A stretch of 43,493 bases of DNA from a virus, in the IMG/VR virus record IMGVR_UViG_3300025419_000005, positions 1 through 43,493 of that record, one strand, 5' to 3'. The stretch's first letter is position 1, and every line of letters begins with the position of its first letter. The notes under the pieces are model-generated. The model had not been told where the DNA came from, made no database searches, and saw only the letters and a program-made list of their open reading frames with translations. This document shows positions 23,615 through 39,209 of the stretch, one piece after another. A program made the position numbers and the translations under genes.

Positions 23615-24051
23615 GTGTTGTCTCCTGATTCAAATAAGGCTTCCTCTGCCTTGCGCCTTTTGAGTAGGCCAGCCAAGTGCTGTCCGCCTGCCATGTCCCA
23701 CATCTCTAGCACCTTGGCTGCGCCGTGATAGTCTTTGTTGTTGAGCAGCCGGAGTGTTGTTGACTTCTCGAAATTTCCGCTTCCAGCATTGAACACGAAG
23801 TCCACAAGGCCATCGAACTCCGGCTGCGTTAGTGGAACATGCACGACGCGGTTGACTTCGGATTCAGCCCATGCCACGTCTGAGAGTAGCCAAGCATCGG
23901 CTTGTTCCTGCGTGCAGGTCATGCCCTCGACCACTTTATAGGTATGCCCCCAACCAATGGTATAGACCTTTCCGTTGGCGTCCCAATAGGCTACAAGCCT
24001 GCATTGCTCGAAGTTTTCAGTTAACTTCATTCCGTCTTTGGAATATCGCAT
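23611..24051 (-). CDS. endolysin, GH24 (T4-type) lysozyme
   Basis: A 146-residue glycoside hydrolase family 24 muramidase that cuts the peptidoglycan glycan chain. The catalytic set is E15 (ENFEQ), D24 (AYWD) and T31 (YTIGWGHT). Further conserved segments are FDGLVDFVFNAGSGNF and LLKRRKAEEALF. No signal peptide is present, so it needs a holin to reach the wall. AAGGAAAA precedes the ATG, which lies inside the end of the ClpB-like gene. Confidence 0.92.
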   Translation of the reverse strand: MRYSKDGMKLTENFEQCRLVAYWDANGKVYTIGWGHTYKVVEGMTCTQEQADAWLLSDVAWAESEVNRVVHVPLTQPEFDGLVDFVFNAGSGNFEKSTTLRLLNNKDYHGAAKVLEMWDMAGGQHLAGLLKRRKAEEALFESGDNT

Positions 24052-25178
24052 ACTGCTTTTTCCTTCCCATCGTCTTCCTCGATCACTTGGCAGGCGGCTG
24101 GTACGATTTCGTCTGTGTTCTGTTCTTTGAATATGGCTGTAATGGCTTTGTCTTGTATGTCAAGAACGACCATGCCCGGCTTGCGTAGTTGGCCTGTGCC
24201 GATGATCGTTGCCAAAGGACTGACGATGTGTTCCTCGATCATGCGCTTGATGTTGCGAGCGCCGTGTTTCGGGTCAGACCCCTTGCTCAGAAACTCATTC
24301 AATTTCGTAGTCACGCCAAGTGTGAACACGAGTTGTTGTGGGGTGGGACTGCGTTCGTTTGCAGCCATCACGACACTCAACCCGCGATTCCATACTTTCC
24401 AAACTTCGATGTTAATGATTCGGTTAATGGCCTCGGCGGTGAGAGGCTTGTATACCAGAATCTTGTTGATACGCCCCATGAACTCAGGGTCGAACTTTCG
24501 TTTCGCGGCGGAGGTAGCCTGCTTTGAAATGTCCCTGAAAGCCTCGACGTAATCCCTAGCCTCGGCGAAGCCAATGGACTCTTGGTTGATGACCCGGCTA
24601 CCTACGTTGCTGGTGAGAAAGATGAGCGCCCGCGTCAAGTCGATGCGCATATTGCGGCCATCGTACATCTCACCTTTGTCCAGAATGCCCAACAGAAGCT
24701 CCCACAGGCGTGGGCTGGCCTTCTCAATTTCATCGAAGAGTATTACGCTCACCTTCGGGCCTTCTTGCGTCCAGCCACGTTGTAGGTTCTCGGGACATAG
24801 AAGTGGGCGTGTACCCTTGTTTCCGGCCTCGGCGGGGTTGTAGTGCCCAGCATAGCCCGGTGGAGACCCTATAATGCGAGCTACTTGGTGATCTTCGGTA
24901 TATTCTGCGCAGTTGATCTTTATCATGCAATCCGGGTCTCCGTGGATTGCTTCGGCGATTGACTCTACGGTCAACGTCTTGCCAACCCCAGTCGGTCCCA
25001 AAAGTAAAGAATTAAACATTGGTTTAGACGGGTCTGACAGGCCAACCCACGCAACCTCGAATGACCTGCTAAGATCATTTAAGGCGTCGTCCTGACCCAC
25101 TATGCGCTTGAAGAGCAAGTCTTCAAACTTTTGCCGCGCTTTGGTTTTAAGTGTCAGGTCCAGCGGAATGTTAGCCAT
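24027..25178 (-). CDS. ClpB/ClpA-type AAA+ ATPase
   Basis: A 383-residue single AAA+ module of the Clp class 1 second-domain type: Walker A GPTGVGKT (61-68), pore-loop-like segment GSPPGYAGH, Walker B VILFDEIEKA (145-154), sensor 1 LTSNVGS, arginine finger region MGRINKILVY and sensor 2 GARNIKRMIE. It lacks the N-domain and first ATPase domain of ClpB. It may remodel or unfold protein complexes during replication or assembly. The substrate is unknown. Confidence 0.85.
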   Translation of the reverse strand: MANIPLDLTLKTKARQKFEDLLFKRIVGQDDALNDLSRSFEVAWVGLSDPSKPMFNSLLLGPTGVGKTLTVESIAEAIHGDPDCMIKINCAEYTEDHQVARIIGSPPGYAGHYNPAEAGNKGTRPLLCPENLQRGWTQEGPKVSVILFDEIEKASPRLWELLLGILDKGEMYDGRNMRIDLTRALIFLTSNVGSRVINQESIGFAEARDYVEAFRDISKQATSAAKRKFDPEFMGRINKILVYKPLTAEAINRIINIEVWKVWNRGLSVVMAANERSPTPQQLVFTLGVTTKLNEFLSKGSDPKHGARNIKRMIEEHIVSPLATIIGTGQLRKPGMVVLDIQDKAITAIFKEQNTDEIVPAACQVIEEDDGKEKAVCDIPKTE

Positions 25179-30995: not shown

Positions 30996-31354
30996 TTGTT
31001 TATCCTCAGCCCGAGTTTGCGCCGGAGCTTCCGGCACATGATCTCGAATTTTTCCCTAAGCTCATCGGTCTCGTTGGCGTAGATCGTGTGCGAGCCGATG
31101 CGGATAGCGTAGTGTGGGCCTTTCGGCGGAGCATCCTCAAGACGCGAGGCATACGAAGTAAAGTAGTTCCAGCGTTCCAAGCTGTTCATTACCGCCACTT
31201 GCTTTGCATCAAGACCTAGCAGCGCCATTGGACCCCCTTCTTTACCAGTAGAGGCCGGTGTTACCCGGCCCCACCCGGCTCCGCGTCGGCGTGACGAAGC
31301 ATACACCCCAATCTTGCCCGTCGAAACCGTAACAGGCCCACAATAATCAGCCAT
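30992..31354 (-). CDS. hypothetical protein, start codon within a long inverted repeat
   Basis: A 120-residue protein beginning MADYCGPVTVSTG, with a Gly/Arg-rich N-terminal third and a basic helical end (KFEIMCRKLRRKLGL). AGGGAA precedes the ATG at 31354; the frame is open to 31432, but without a ribosome site. The first 22 coding bases are a near-perfect inverted copy of 31440-31461 at the tmRNA 3' end, so a folded transcript could hide the start. Unknown function. Confidence 0.6.
   Translation of the reverse strand: MADYCGPVTVSTGKIGVYASSRRRGAGWGRVTPASTGKEGGPMALLGLDAKQVAVMNSLERWNYFTSYASRLEDAPPKGPHYAIRIGSHTIYANETDELREKFEIMCRKLRRKLGLRINK
31333..31354. repeat. inverted repeat, left arm (20 of 22 match)
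   Basis: It matches the reverse complement of 31440-31461 at 20 of 22 positions, separated by 85 bases. This arm holds the first seven codons of the 120-residue gene; the other holds the end of the tmRNA locus. Confidence 0.85.
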
Positions 31355-31439
31355 AATTTCCCTACGGTCATGGCACGATGTTGTCTGTATACGCCTTGCT
31401 TTGCAACACACGTCTAAGAACTTGCCTAACAACTAGGGT

Positions 31440-31461
31440 ATGGCTGATTATGGTGGACCTG
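31440..31461. repeat. inverted repeat, right arm
   Basis: Partner of 31333-31354. On the minus-strand transcript it lies at the 3' end of the tmRNA coding segment and includes TCCACCAT, which also complements the 5' end of the tmRNA precursor. Confidence 0.85.
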
Positions 31462-31800
31462 CGGAGGCGGTGAACGCCGTCCATTAAACTCGGTAGGGGA
31501 GTCCTTCGACTCCCCATCCTTGTATGCAAACTACGCATTTGCGTAAAGCACCTTCGTGTTTTTCGCAGTTAGTTTTGAGAGTTGATTTCGGAAGTCTCCC
31601 ACTCCCGGCTCAAATAAGCGCCGTTTCCTCTTACCCCGGTCGATGCCATTATACCCCCGTATGGTGGAGGTAGAGAGAATCGAACTCTCGTGTCGTTGTA
31701 TAGTCATACGGCCTGTTTATGAGCGTACTTTATAATAGCTCTCGGCGGACCAGAACGCCGGGCTACTGCCAGTACCAAGGGGCCTCACGGCCTCCACCAT
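31450..31800 (-). ncRNA. ssrA: circularly permuted (two-piece type) tmRNA
   Basis: In transcript order: a hairpin-rich 5' part, P2 strand (31724-31708), T-arm GAGAG-TTCGATT-CTCTC (31689-31673), acceptor strand TACCTCC (31672-31666), A, CCA (31664-31662), three spacer bases, then GGGGGTA (31658-31652) pairing with TACCTCC (7 bp, one G-U) and TGGCATCGACCGGGG (31648-31634), close to the tmRNA signature TGGATTCGACGGG. P2 strands 31624-31608 pair with 31724-31708 (13 bp, one loop, one bulge). PK1: CGGGAGT/ACTTCCG with loop GGGAG pairing to CTCTC at 31581-31577. Resume codon GCG is at 31566, ten bases later. The halves are in reversed order relative to a standard tmRNA. Confidence 0.88.
31531..31566 (-). 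other. tmRNA proteolysis-tag reading frame
   Basis: GCG AAA AAC ... GCG TAG encodes AKNTKVLYANA. The stop sits in the loop of hairpin GCAAA/TTTGC (31542-31526), as in other tmRNAs. The tag ends in ANA, not the usual AA. Confidence 0.85.
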
Positions 31801-31813
31801 CTGATCTACCTAC

Positions 31814-31842
31814 AGGATAACACAACCCCTTGCTCAAGTCAA
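31814..31842 (-). promoter_or_regulatory. promoter of the tmRNA locus
   Basis: TTGACT (31842-31837), a 17-base spacer ending GGTTGTGT, then TATCCT (31819-31814). Transcription would start near 31806, just before the tmRNA acceptor segment. The -35 box touches the stop codon of the helicase gene. Confidence 0.75.
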
Positions 31843-37409: not shown

Positions 37410-37605
37410 CCATCCTCTTCAGCTTAGCTTGCAGTTTTTCTACACGATGTTCGATACGAGAAACCCATACAGTACCAGAACGTTTCCATCCATGTGTCTC
37501 CCAAAAACAGGCCTCGTGTAGCCTAGCTTTCAGGCGCTCACGCCTGACGTAGTTTTTGATGATGGCCAACAGCGCATTCTGCGTTAGGGGTTTAGACTTC
37601 GTCAT
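37396..37605 (-). CDS. hypothetical basic protein
   Basis: A 69-residue Lys/Arg-rich helical protein starting MTKSKPLTQNALL. GGAGGAG precedes the ATG at 37605, and it overlaps the RNA ligase 3' end by 14 bases. The WETHGWKRSGTVWVSR segment and a coiled end suggest a nucleic-acid binder. No family recognised. Confidence 0.55.
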   Translation of the reverse strand: MTKSKPLTQNALLAIIKNYVRRERLKARLHEACFWETHGWKRSGTVWVSRIEHRVEKLQAKLKRMDENY

Positions 37606-38824
37606 TGGACTCCTCCGCGTGATAGGTGCCCTGTGAGAAGAATTCTGCCCGCGCCGGACGCAGTATCTTCCAAATAACTTTGGCGTAGTCCTTTCCATCG
37701 TACATCAAAAACAGTACAGGCGCTAGGAATATCATTTCGGGGCCTTCCGCCGGATGCTGCATCAACACCTGCTGTTTGAAAAACTCGGCCACGGCCTTGC
37801 GATTCCAATCTCCCCGGCTTCCGGCGATGCGAGCTAGCGCGATGCTCTCCTGCTCGATGTACTTGAACATCAGCGTGTAATATGCAATCTTGCCGGTCAG
37901 CCATTCGGTGAACTCAGGCGGAGTGAACGGAGTCAACGAGGCAACATCAATAGTCTTGCCTTGGCTCAGCGTCTCCCACACATCACGGTTCGTCATCCCA
38001 AACATCGCCCGGTGACTCAGCTTGTAGTTCTCGAACTTGATTTTGACGCGCAGAGGAGCCTTGTGAGGAATCGCCAGCGACCAGTTCAAAGGTTCCGACT
38101 CCTTCAATCGGATGTAGCCTCCGTGCGAAAGGAATTTAGCTACGTATCCTTCGCGGTTTTTGTCGTTCTCTTCCGCACACTGTGCAACAGTCTTGGTAAA
38201 CAGGGGCACGAGTTCCAGACCGAAGTATCGTCCGTTGTCGAACGCCATTTCTTCGTAGGCCAACTCTTCGCCGGTCTCTTTGTAAATCACTGCGAAGAGC
38301 ACCAGAGACTCGCGTTTGCCGTAGTCTACTACGATCTGGTTGCCCGGCATGATGATCTCCACCAGCAACGTTTGATGGCGCGGCATCTGGAAGCAGGGCA
38401 GAGCTTGCAGGAAGGCAGTAGCCCACTTCGCTTGCTCGCTGTCGAAGGACCCGCGAGTCGCCACTTCCGGCGGATTGTCCTTGTACTGGAAAATGACGCC
38501 CATGCTTCCGTCCATCTTCTCGGTGATCTCGATCTTGTTCTTGAGAGGATTCAACGGAAGGTTGTCCAGCATCGTCTCCGGGTAGCGCGTGTCATTGATG
38601 TTGAAGAAAGCTTCCATTGGCCGGGCCACGATCTCCCCGGTCTCCCGGTCCACGATCAGACCACGGCAGCGGCGGAGCGTAACATCGTCATGCGTCTTCG
38701 TCATCGCTTCGCTCGTATAGTTGTATATGTCTAAAGGCCATTTGGGATGAGGGCGTTTAGAAACAAGCCCGTTAGAAACTCCTCCTTCTAGCTCATTTGC
38801 ATCGACATATTGATTAAGTAGCAT
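37592..38824 (-). CDS. RNA ligase, T4 Rnl1-like
   Basis: A 410-residue ATP-dependent RNA ligase. Adenylation lysine K103 is in EKMDGSMG (motif I, KxDGS). RRCRGLIVD comes before it, RPMEAFFNI follows as in T4 RnlA, LLVEIIMPGNQIVVDY is motif IIIa-like, EGYVAKF is motif IV and VKIKFENY is motif V. T4 uses this enzyme to reseal tRNA cut by host anticodon nucleases. No polynucleotide kinase is visible here. GGAGG precedes the ATG at 38824; the frame open further upstream is the shadow of the HNH gene. Confidence 0.88.
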   Translation of the reverse strand: MLLNQYVDANELEGGVSNGLVSKRPHPKWPLDIYNYTSEAMTKTHDDVTLRRCRGLIVDRETGEIVARPMEAFFNINDTRYPETMLDNLPLNPLKNKIEITEKMDGSMGVIFQYKDNPPEVATRGSFDSEQAKWATAFLQALPCFQMPRHQTLLVEIIMPGNQIVVDYGKRESLVLFAVIYKETGEELAYEEMAFDNGRYFGLELVPLFTKTVAQCAEENDKNREGYVAKFLSHGGYIRLKESEPLNWSLAIPHKAPLRVKIKFENYKLSHRAMFGMTNRDVWETLSQGKTIDVASLTPFTPPEFTEWLTGKIAYYTLMFKYIEQESIALARIAGSRGDWNRKAVAEFFKQQVLMQHPAEGPEMIFLAPVLFLMYDGKDYAKVIWKILRPARAEFFSQGTYHAEESNDEV

Positions 38825-39209
38825 GTAACCTCCGAAGATGCAATGCACGTTTCTTCCATTGATGATTCCAACATAGAGTTTGAAGCCCTTTTTGACGCTC
38901 TCTATGGAAGAGCCAAGAATACAACTTCGAGCCATGCATTTGGCCTTTGCGTCGTTGGTATGCGCCATCGTTGTTGACATGATCTAATGTCAACATATCT
39001 AAATCGATTTGGCTACATCCACGCCAACAACATTTTGCTTCTCCGTCCTTTCCGTAACGAGCTAGAACAATGTTCTTTGTTTGTCGCTGGTGTCTGAAGT
39101 TTATTCGGCAGCGAGAGGCTTTTCCTTTAGATGTTCGGAGATATTTTTTCTGTGCGGCTTTTCCTTTAATGCCACCATTGTATTTTCTAACTGTTTCTTT
39201 TCTGTTCAT
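38814..39209 (-). CDS. HNH homing-type endonuclease, copy 1
   Basis: A 131-residue very basic protein. The C-terminal nuclease part reads CCWRGC, IDLDMLTLDHVNNDG, LYSWL and LQTLCWNHQWKK, matching the gene at 41186-41560 almost segment by segment. The type is a zinc-held HNH nuclease typical of free-standing phage homing genes. It overlaps the RNA ligase start by 11 bases, so it is inserted tightly between genes. A+T richer than the ligase. Confidence 0.8.
   Translation of the reverse strand: MNRKETVRKYNGGIKGKAAQKKYLRTSKGKASRCRINFRHQRQTKNIVLARYGKDGEAKCCWRGCSQIDLDMLTLDHVNNDGAYQRRKGQMHGSKLYSWLFHRERQKGLQTLCWNHQWKKRALHLRRLHAT

Follow-up and report, generated by a model that had tools for sequence, protein, structure and literature searches.

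A circularly permuted tmRNA gene followed by a damaged tandem element in a tailed phage

A tailed phage carries a circularly permuted tmRNA gene, here called tmRNA 1, on the minus strand at about 31,754 to 31,492 of the window, by which we mean the whole stretch of viral DNA analysed (43,493 nucleotides; IMG/VR record IMGVR_UViG_3300025419_000005). The identification draws on the sequence, a covariance model match, the structure, the tag frame and the occurrence of the same sequence in other contigs. tmRNA 1 is probably one complete permuted tmRNA that is processed, alanylated and rescues ribosomes together with the SmpB of the host. Directly downstream lies a second permuted-tmRNA element (element 2), which is damaged. 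The kind of gene is already known; new here are the permuted tmRNAs of the phages Tunturi_3 and Tunturi_4, the damaged tandem element 2 and a tag that lacks an -AA end.

Results

Identification of tmRNA 1

The Rfam model of the permuted form, RF04321 (tmRNA_permuted), matches tmRNA 1 at 31724-31531 with 64.8 bits against a cut-off of 47 (E = 2.2e-10 over the whole window) and scores 65.1 bits on a 551-base stretch that contains the gene. This match, on a tailed-phage genome, bears out the permuted phage tmRNA gene proposed in a preliminary description of the window from its letters alone. The score is moderate, one bacterial tmRNA scored for comparison reaching 160.4 bits. The beta_tmRNA model RF01850 aligns over 31775-31492, terminal hairpin included, with 35.8 bits, and stays short of its cut-off (84). 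ARAGORN, suggested as a check alongside the Rfam models, gives a divided answer: at its default setting it does not report tmRNA 1, and at -ps95 it makes a single permuted call (window 31440-31754, minus strand, tag AKNTKVLYANA) printed as tmRNAp*, the "p" presumably standing for a possible pseudogene with a low score. When the threshold is lowered to -ps85 or further, extra and doubtful calls appear both in the tmRNA 1 region and in control loci, the latter run at thresholds other than -ps95, and therefore the -ps95 result alone is used.

An unconstrained fold of 31810-31440 contains the acceptor stem, the T stem, P2 and stem 1 of pseudoknot PK1, with a z score of -4.26 (100 shuffles). Four other contigs (3300025441, 3300025469, 3300018025 and 3300040758) cover the region with 0-1 mismatches to the window and none at 31316-31842; elsewhere they show at most 3 mismatches in 6.2 kb, and they may not be independent samples. 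The preliminary description needs correction on strand and extent. Sequence reading and model match both place the gene on the minus strand, the beta-model alignment ends it at the hairpin 31515-31496, and element 2 starts inside the range originally given (31450-31800) and extends past it.

Anatomy of tmRNA 1

The features of tmRNA 1 and its upstream region are as follows, all on the minus strand.

31814-31842: site resembling a promoter, TTGACT-17-TATCCT with a TG preceding the -10, immediately before tmRNA 1 (9 of 12 matches)
31791-31800: AUGGUGGAGG in the leader, fully complementary to the acceptor end CCUCCACCAU
31608-31724: tRNA-like domain, P2 5′ strand to P2 3′ strand (RF04321/RF01850 match, fold)
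31724-31720 with 31612-31608: outer P2, GCUCA/UGAGC (model match, fold)
31662-31689: T arm, acceptor 3′ strand, discriminator A and encoded CCA (model match, reading, T-stem covariation)
31689-31673: T stem GAGAG, loop UUCGAUU, CUCUC (sequence reading)
31672-31666: acceptor 3′ strand UACCUCC, followed by the discriminator A
31664-31662: CCA, encoded
31659-31661: intervening sequence (link) UAC, 3 nt (sequence reading)
31639-31658: 5′ half, from the acceptor 5′ strand GGGGGUA to UGGCAUCGAC (model match, reading)
31658-31652: acceptor 5′ strand GGGGGUA, 7 pairs with UACCUCC including a G-U at the third
31648-31639: UGGCAUCGAC (sequence reading)
31577-31607: pseudoknot PK1, stem 1 of 7 bp and stem 2 of 5 bp (reading; fold for stem 1)
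31607-31601 with 31595-31589: PK1 stem 1, CGGGAGU/ACUUCCG (reading, unconstrained fold)
31600-31596 with 31581-31577: PK1 stem 2, GGGAG/CUCUC (by eye)
31531-31566: tag frame GCG..TAG, AKNTKVLYANA (own rule and ARAGORN -ps95)
31496-31515: 8-bp terminal hairpin GGGGAGUC-GAAG-GACUCCCC, at which the beta_tmRNA alignment has the coding RNA finish (RF01850 alignment, fold)

Several defining features of a permuted tmRNA are present: the CCA-bearing acceptor half precedes the tag half, the 7-bp acceptor has its G-U at the third pair, and the T loop is of the form UUCRAUY. The spacer between PK1 and the resume codon, GCG at 31566, is 10 nt, and the stop TAG (31533-31531) sits in the loop of a hairpin GCAAA-UGCGUAG-UUUGC. 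The order of the halves, the acceptor stem, P2, the 10-base spacing and the stop-in-loop hairpin can all be read in the sequence as first described, and both stems of PK1 can form. tmRNA 1 shares gene order, acceptor with G-U, T loop, P2 and tag frame with the permuted tmRNA of RF04321 and differs from it by GGCAUCGAC in place of the conserved GGUUUCGAC and by a tag ending in -ANA; in addition, the GGAC before the T stem is replaced by ACAC.

Upstream, the leader forms a 17-nt inverted repeat with the acceptor end (31784-31800 with 31661-31677, 82%, 10 perfect pairs), a pairing that perhaps has a precursor role like that of the paired spacer of relatives. The promoter-like site is weak evidence, since 4 such sites are found in 1.3 kb where 1.2 are expected. 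A scan for intrinsic terminators after tmRNA 1 found none.

Compensatory changes

In 29 permuted tmRNAs with short links, chosen to have a UUCRA loop and no more than one unpaired position among the 7 of the acceptor, the T stem is 100% paired, with double changes in 3 of its 5 pairs. In the other two pairs the search patterns dictate all or some of the bases, namely the closing T pair and one further base, which leaves the three free pairs as the independent evidence. The acceptor is paired in 97.5% of cells with double changes in 4 of 7 pairs, statistics that are biased because the sequences were chosen for acceptor pairing. For P2, a duplex-energy swap test (mean -17.1 versus -15.3; own partner best in 6 of 74; window at rank 8) and a longest-helix test (6.76 own versus 6.60 swapped) yielded nothing useful, and an anchored test of six bases showed a weak excess (11.8 versus 9.8, sd 4.7), the window being beaten by 7 of 13 swaps. 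A five-base test separates own partners (11 of 14 family members) from swapped ones (65 of 182) and leans towards this result, because its place and length were chosen after the six-base test. Compensatory changes among relatives are seen in the T stem and in the last of the P2 tests, the three earlier P2 tests carrying little or no signal; with these changes and the covariance model match, the refuting conditions named in the preliminary description do not overturn the tmRNA reading.

The tag peptide

The window tag, AKNTKVLYANA, has 11 residues, which is short for its family, and ends in -YANA instead of the usual -AA; a protease signal such as -LAA, usual though not strictly defining, is absent. 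The family consists of the window, 11 related contigs and the two Tunturi phages, 14 in all, and our own rule gives a confident reading in 11, of which 8 have at least 20 residues (median 26) and 9 end in -AA. ARAGORN at default returns the same tags for L177, L179, L181, L185 and Tunturi_4, finds a tag in L178 that our rule missed, gives a different one for L180, and reports none for the other five related contigs or Tunturi_3. The -AA end is absent from 3 of the 13 other family members (L178, L182 and L186). By eye, the window tag gives the impression of the start of relatives' tags (..KLAKVLMFA.. in L184) cut before their -ALAA end.

Tags of 20-36 residues are frequent in phage permuted tmRNAs (L177, L179, L181, L182, L185, L307, L308 and others). 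In a second viral class, marked by GGGCCTG, 30 of 76 confident tags have at least 20 residues and 71 of 76 end in -AA, from a set of 80 entries with one locus entered twice. The tags of bacterial permuted tmRNAs with short links are uniform: all 31 distinct sequences, from 39 loci of which the rest are identical or cut, have 10 residues, end in -AA, and read ANDERFALAA or close to it.

The link between CCA and the 5′ G

A pattern search in viral sequences returned 36 stretches with links of 1 to 28 nt. Leaving aside the four stretches of the window phage, 11 of 32 have a link of 1-4 nt; these 11 form about six groups of near-copies, and none of them is among the 3 of the 32 that lack a tmRNA 5′ half. 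In a genome collection with one genome for each of 84,980 species, a pattern with a 0-5 nt link matched 39 stretches, 37 with 4 nt, one with 3 nt and one with 0 nt; the pattern spanned only this range of links, and 37 of 39 is thus no measure of how common 4 nt is. The 0-nt match lies at the end of an Actinomycetota contig and is probably no tmRNA. The titles of 33 of the 39 name Accumulibacter or other taxa that we take to be Rhodocyclales. Since other viral contigs, and bacteria too, have links of 1-4 nt, the 3-nt link of tmRNA 1 is not exceptional: the preliminary description called it unusually short, and short it is, though not unusual, so it is rejected as a sign of novelty. A member of the GGGCCTG viral class (L285, 10128-10341, minus strand) also has a 4-nt link, and short links may therefore arise more than once.

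The Rhodocyclales-type beta tmRNA (RF01850) resembles tmRNA 1 in its short link (4 nt in 37 of 39) and in its acceptor CACCUCC/GGGGGUG, the acceptor having been part of the search pattern. It differs in its tag, and the window reaches only 35.8 bits against the beta cut-off of 84. A beta-type assignment, or capture from such bacteria, is not supported, with RF01850 below its cut-off and the tag unlike all 31 distinct bacterial tags.

A damaged permuted element directly downstream

Element 2 occupies 31,482-31,316 and has neither an intact T loop nor a recognised tag domain. Its parts, on the minus strand, are:

31451-31482: acceptor half, GGAC, altered T arm (no UUCRA loop), CAGGUCC, A, CCA
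31340-31450: intervening sequence of 111 nt, whose ends pair and extend the acceptor stem (23-nt inverted repeat, 91%)
31316-31339: 5′ half GGGCCUGUUACGGUUUCGACGGGC, followed by no recognised tag domain

The two strands of its acceptor stem form 7 base pairs, the third of them a G-U (fold z -4.85). The T arm reads GGACGGCGUUCACCGCCUCCG, without a UUCRA loop, a coding frame MALLGLD.. follows the 5′ half where the tag domain would be sought, and RF04321 scores 15.9 bits (E = 0.34), below the cut-off of 47. Because T loop and tag domain are missing, element 2 is rejected as a working gene. A motif combining CCA, a 7-bp acceptor and GG[TC]TTCGA within 200 nt, composed after element 2 had been seen, occurs once in the window, at element 2, and does not catch tmRNA 1; it is absent from 17.4 Mb of mononucleotide-shuffled window and from 3.4 Mb of reversed loci. 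Among the 79 other viral loci listed for GGGCCTGNNNNGGTTTCGAC, the same acceptor and 5′ half as in element 2 stand in permuted order in at least 61, in standard order in 3, and have neither assignment in 15; the spacers in the permuted loci measure 29-220 nt, with ends likewise paired in those inspected. Within 1.5-kb flanks of L051 and L176-L186, no tandem tmRNA pair was seen in relatives. From its sequence, element 2 reads as a relic, probably a decayed copy of the permuted tmRNA type carried by relatives, and we infer an order of events in which tmRNA 1 has overrun its 5′ part.

The phage, its relatives and its host

The window is DNA of a real, tailed phage. Its largest contig, of 91,922 bases, has genes for a major head protein, a portal or head-tail protein, the large terminase subunit and a GroEL-family chaperonin (L339 1803-3461), and the window itself encodes a DNA polymerase, a UvsX-like recombinase, a primase-helicase, a helicase and an endolysin. 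Other window genes, all on the minus strand, specify a Mom-family protein (PF25680, 25215-25910), an RNA ligase (phrog_562, RNA ligase and tail fiber attachment, 37592-38980), here in a phage with a two-piece RNA, and a match to a phage ATP-dependent protease family (phrog_4871, 24027-25178) that may bear on what becomes of tagged proteins.

In a set of 50,697 deposited phages the polymerase is matched best by those of Tunturi_4 (34% over 98%) and Tunturi_3 (31% over 98%), isolated Tunturiibacter phages that infect Acidobacteriota (PMC11924767). Both have a permuted tmRNA above the RF04321 cut-off (79.2 and 63.3 bits), unannotated in their records; tmRNA is not mentioned in the main text of PMC11924767, which describes tRNAs whose type is unknown. 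As in the window phage, no SmpB was found in either. Tunturi_3 and Tunturi_4 differ from the window in links of 25 and 154 nt, in tags of 29 and 33 residues, and in an RF-1 domain gene that adjoins the tmRNA of Tunturi_4:

PP885687 43532-43941: Tunturi_4 permuted tmRNA (RF04321), same strand as the RF-1 gene
PP885687 43946-44293: Tunturi_4 RF-1 domain release factor as deposited (PF00472, GGQ kept), 4 nt from the tmRNA, same strand
PP885686 88172-88396: Tunturi_3 permuted tmRNA (RF04321), with an RF-1 domain frame with GGQ elsewhere in the genome

Two possible ribosome-rescue factors thus adjoin at PP885687 43532-44293. PF00472 occurs in 3 of 20 records: the two Tunturi phages, both with GGQ, and G008 (35.4 bits against a cut-off of 35), in whose frame no GGQ was seen and whose record has no RF04321 match. 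No RF-1 rescue factor was found in records G000, G002 and G004 of the window phage, nor a GPGGQ-like frame in the loci read.

More widely, the search for viral homologues that had been proposed as a check was positive. In 75 related phage records (the best 80 of 562 loci from a search with the window recombinase, less five of the window phage), RF04321 matches 12 at E <= 0.001 and 11 above its cut-off, in addition to both Tunturi isolates. The twelfth, G028, is a standard tmRNA (RF00023, 118 bits). Among the 15 related records of at least 90 kb, 10 have an RF04321 tmRNA. The T loop departs from the usual form in two related tmRNAs above the cut-off (L051, UAGCAUA-like; L176, UGCGAU-like), and may therefore be relaxed in the group. 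SmpB (PF01668) was found in none of 13 phage records, most of which may be fragments, comprising the window and 12 others with two further contigs of the same phage among them; this agrees with the earlier remark that no SmpB gene is visible, so SmpB of the host would be needed.

An acidobacterial host is a lead from the polymerase and not a result. The recombinase is unusable as a pointer to the host: unannotated human-faecal contigs come first and Tunturi_3 third at 54%, all identities but those of one record lie below 60%, and the polymerase alone singles out the Tunturi phages. Acidobacteriota mostly have a one-piece tmRNA.

Protein frames within intervening sequences

The link of tmRNA 1 has no room for a frame, and element 2 (copy L018) has none by the rule used here. 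Of the 84 distinct intervening sequences of the GGGCCTG class, 23 start with a Shine-Dalgarno-like stretch and an ATG that opens a frame of 22-84 residues, whereas 200 trials with shuffled intervening sequences gave a mean of 1.5 such frames and a maximum of 7; the rule (at least 20 residues) was set after examples had been seen, and several of the 23 are near-copies. The frames stop 1-13 nt before the coding RNA in 18 cases and run 27-28 nt into it in 5. Nine of the peptides have no clear PHROG match. On one IMG/VR contig (L289, 28-539, minus strand), an 84-residue thioredoxin (PF00085, 4.1e-21) lies wholly inside the intervening sequence of a tmRNA gene that scores 136 bits.

Discussion

The novelty that the preliminary description implied for a permuted phage tmRNA does not hold, as two-piece tmRNAs were reported in 2022 in marine phages including the OM43 phage Melnitz (PMC9004378). 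That study lists 133 unique tmRNA structures in 402 phages, 53 of them suggested by ARAGORN to be two-piece and 50 of these 53 from marine or aquatic samples (PMC9004378). RF04321 models the permuted form, with 79 phage tmRNA sequences counted (PMC11915505), and a Lacusarx tmRNA is also on record (PMC5648845). Like the window, Melnitz has a permuted tmRNA on a tailed-phage genome; its tmRNA has its closest counterparts in Alphaproteobacteria and is associated with a glutamine riboswitch, whereas the window polymerase points to Tunturi_3 and Tunturi_4 and an Rfam scan of the window reports no riboswitch. In largely open-access literature we found no report of a permuted tmRNA in Acidobacteriota phages or of open frames in a permuted-tmRNA intervening sequence, which is weak evidence of novelty in both cases.

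For the known two-piece tmRNAs it is established that a precursor is cut into two RNAs that act in SmpB-dependent rescue. By analogy, tmRNA 1 would be transcribed as a single precursor and cut at the 3-nt link by host tRNA-processing enzymes, giving an acceptor RNA that ends in CCA and a coding RNA that starts with G, held together by the acceptor and P2 helices. The alanyl-tRNA synthetase of the host would charge it, the G-U at the third acceptor pair being present, and host SmpB would deliver it to stalled ribosomes, leading to release and to the tag AKNTKVLYANA after the charged alanine. During infection, ribosomes stalled on broken mRNAs would in this way be recycled. Transcription, processing, charging and function are what we infer by this analogy.

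A less favourable reading is that tmRNA 1 is itself decaying, a recent pseudogene beside the older element 2. The departures at GGUUUCGAC, at GGAC and at the tag end, the tmRNAp* mark of ARAGORN, the moderate RF04321 score and the clear relic directly after the gene all fit such decay. We nevertheless regard it as unlikely, as acceptor stem, T loop, P2, PK1, resume codon, and stop-in-loop and terminal hairpins are all intact together, and 3 of the 13 other family members likewise lack an -AA end.

Either element might instead inhibit host trans-translation by titrating SmpB. A molecule of the kind found in mycobacteriophage DS6A, an RNA with the tRNA-like domain only, is reported to inhibit tmRNA, perhaps in this manner, in a paper that also treats tmRNA pseudogenes (PMC4131195), and element 2, though it lacks a tag domain, has retained an acceptor stem and 5′ half; with a full tag frame in tmRNA 1, and with the T loop of element 2 lost and its RF04321 score at 15.9 bits, such inhibition seems highly improbable. 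Acquisition of a host tmRNA sequence at an integration site, as attP or by imprecise excision, would suit the frequent use of tmRNA genes as integration sites (PMC11915505). It is the least probable account, given that tmRNA 1 is complete and not a 3′ fragment and that its tag is unlike all 31 distinct bacterial tags read. The preferred reading remains a complete tmRNA 1 followed by a relic.

A more speculative and very unlikely extension would make the pair a two-part device, in which tmRNA 1 frees ribosomes with a tag that escapes host proteases of the ClpXP type and a tRNA-like, tagless RNA from element 2 occupies SmpB or blocks the host tmRNA; if true, it would place ribosome rescue in infected cells under phage control. 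Perhaps of more general interest than the window gene are the protein frames that other phage permuted tmRNAs hold in their intervening sequences. With the gene described here, a phage group related by its polymerase to isolated Acidobacteriota phages joins the known carriers of permuted tmRNA, the tags of this group differ from the bacterial tags read, and a permuted gene is seen in tandem with a decayed one. Since Tunturi_3 and Tunturi_4 are isolates, experiments in culture can now address why phages retain a tmRNA.
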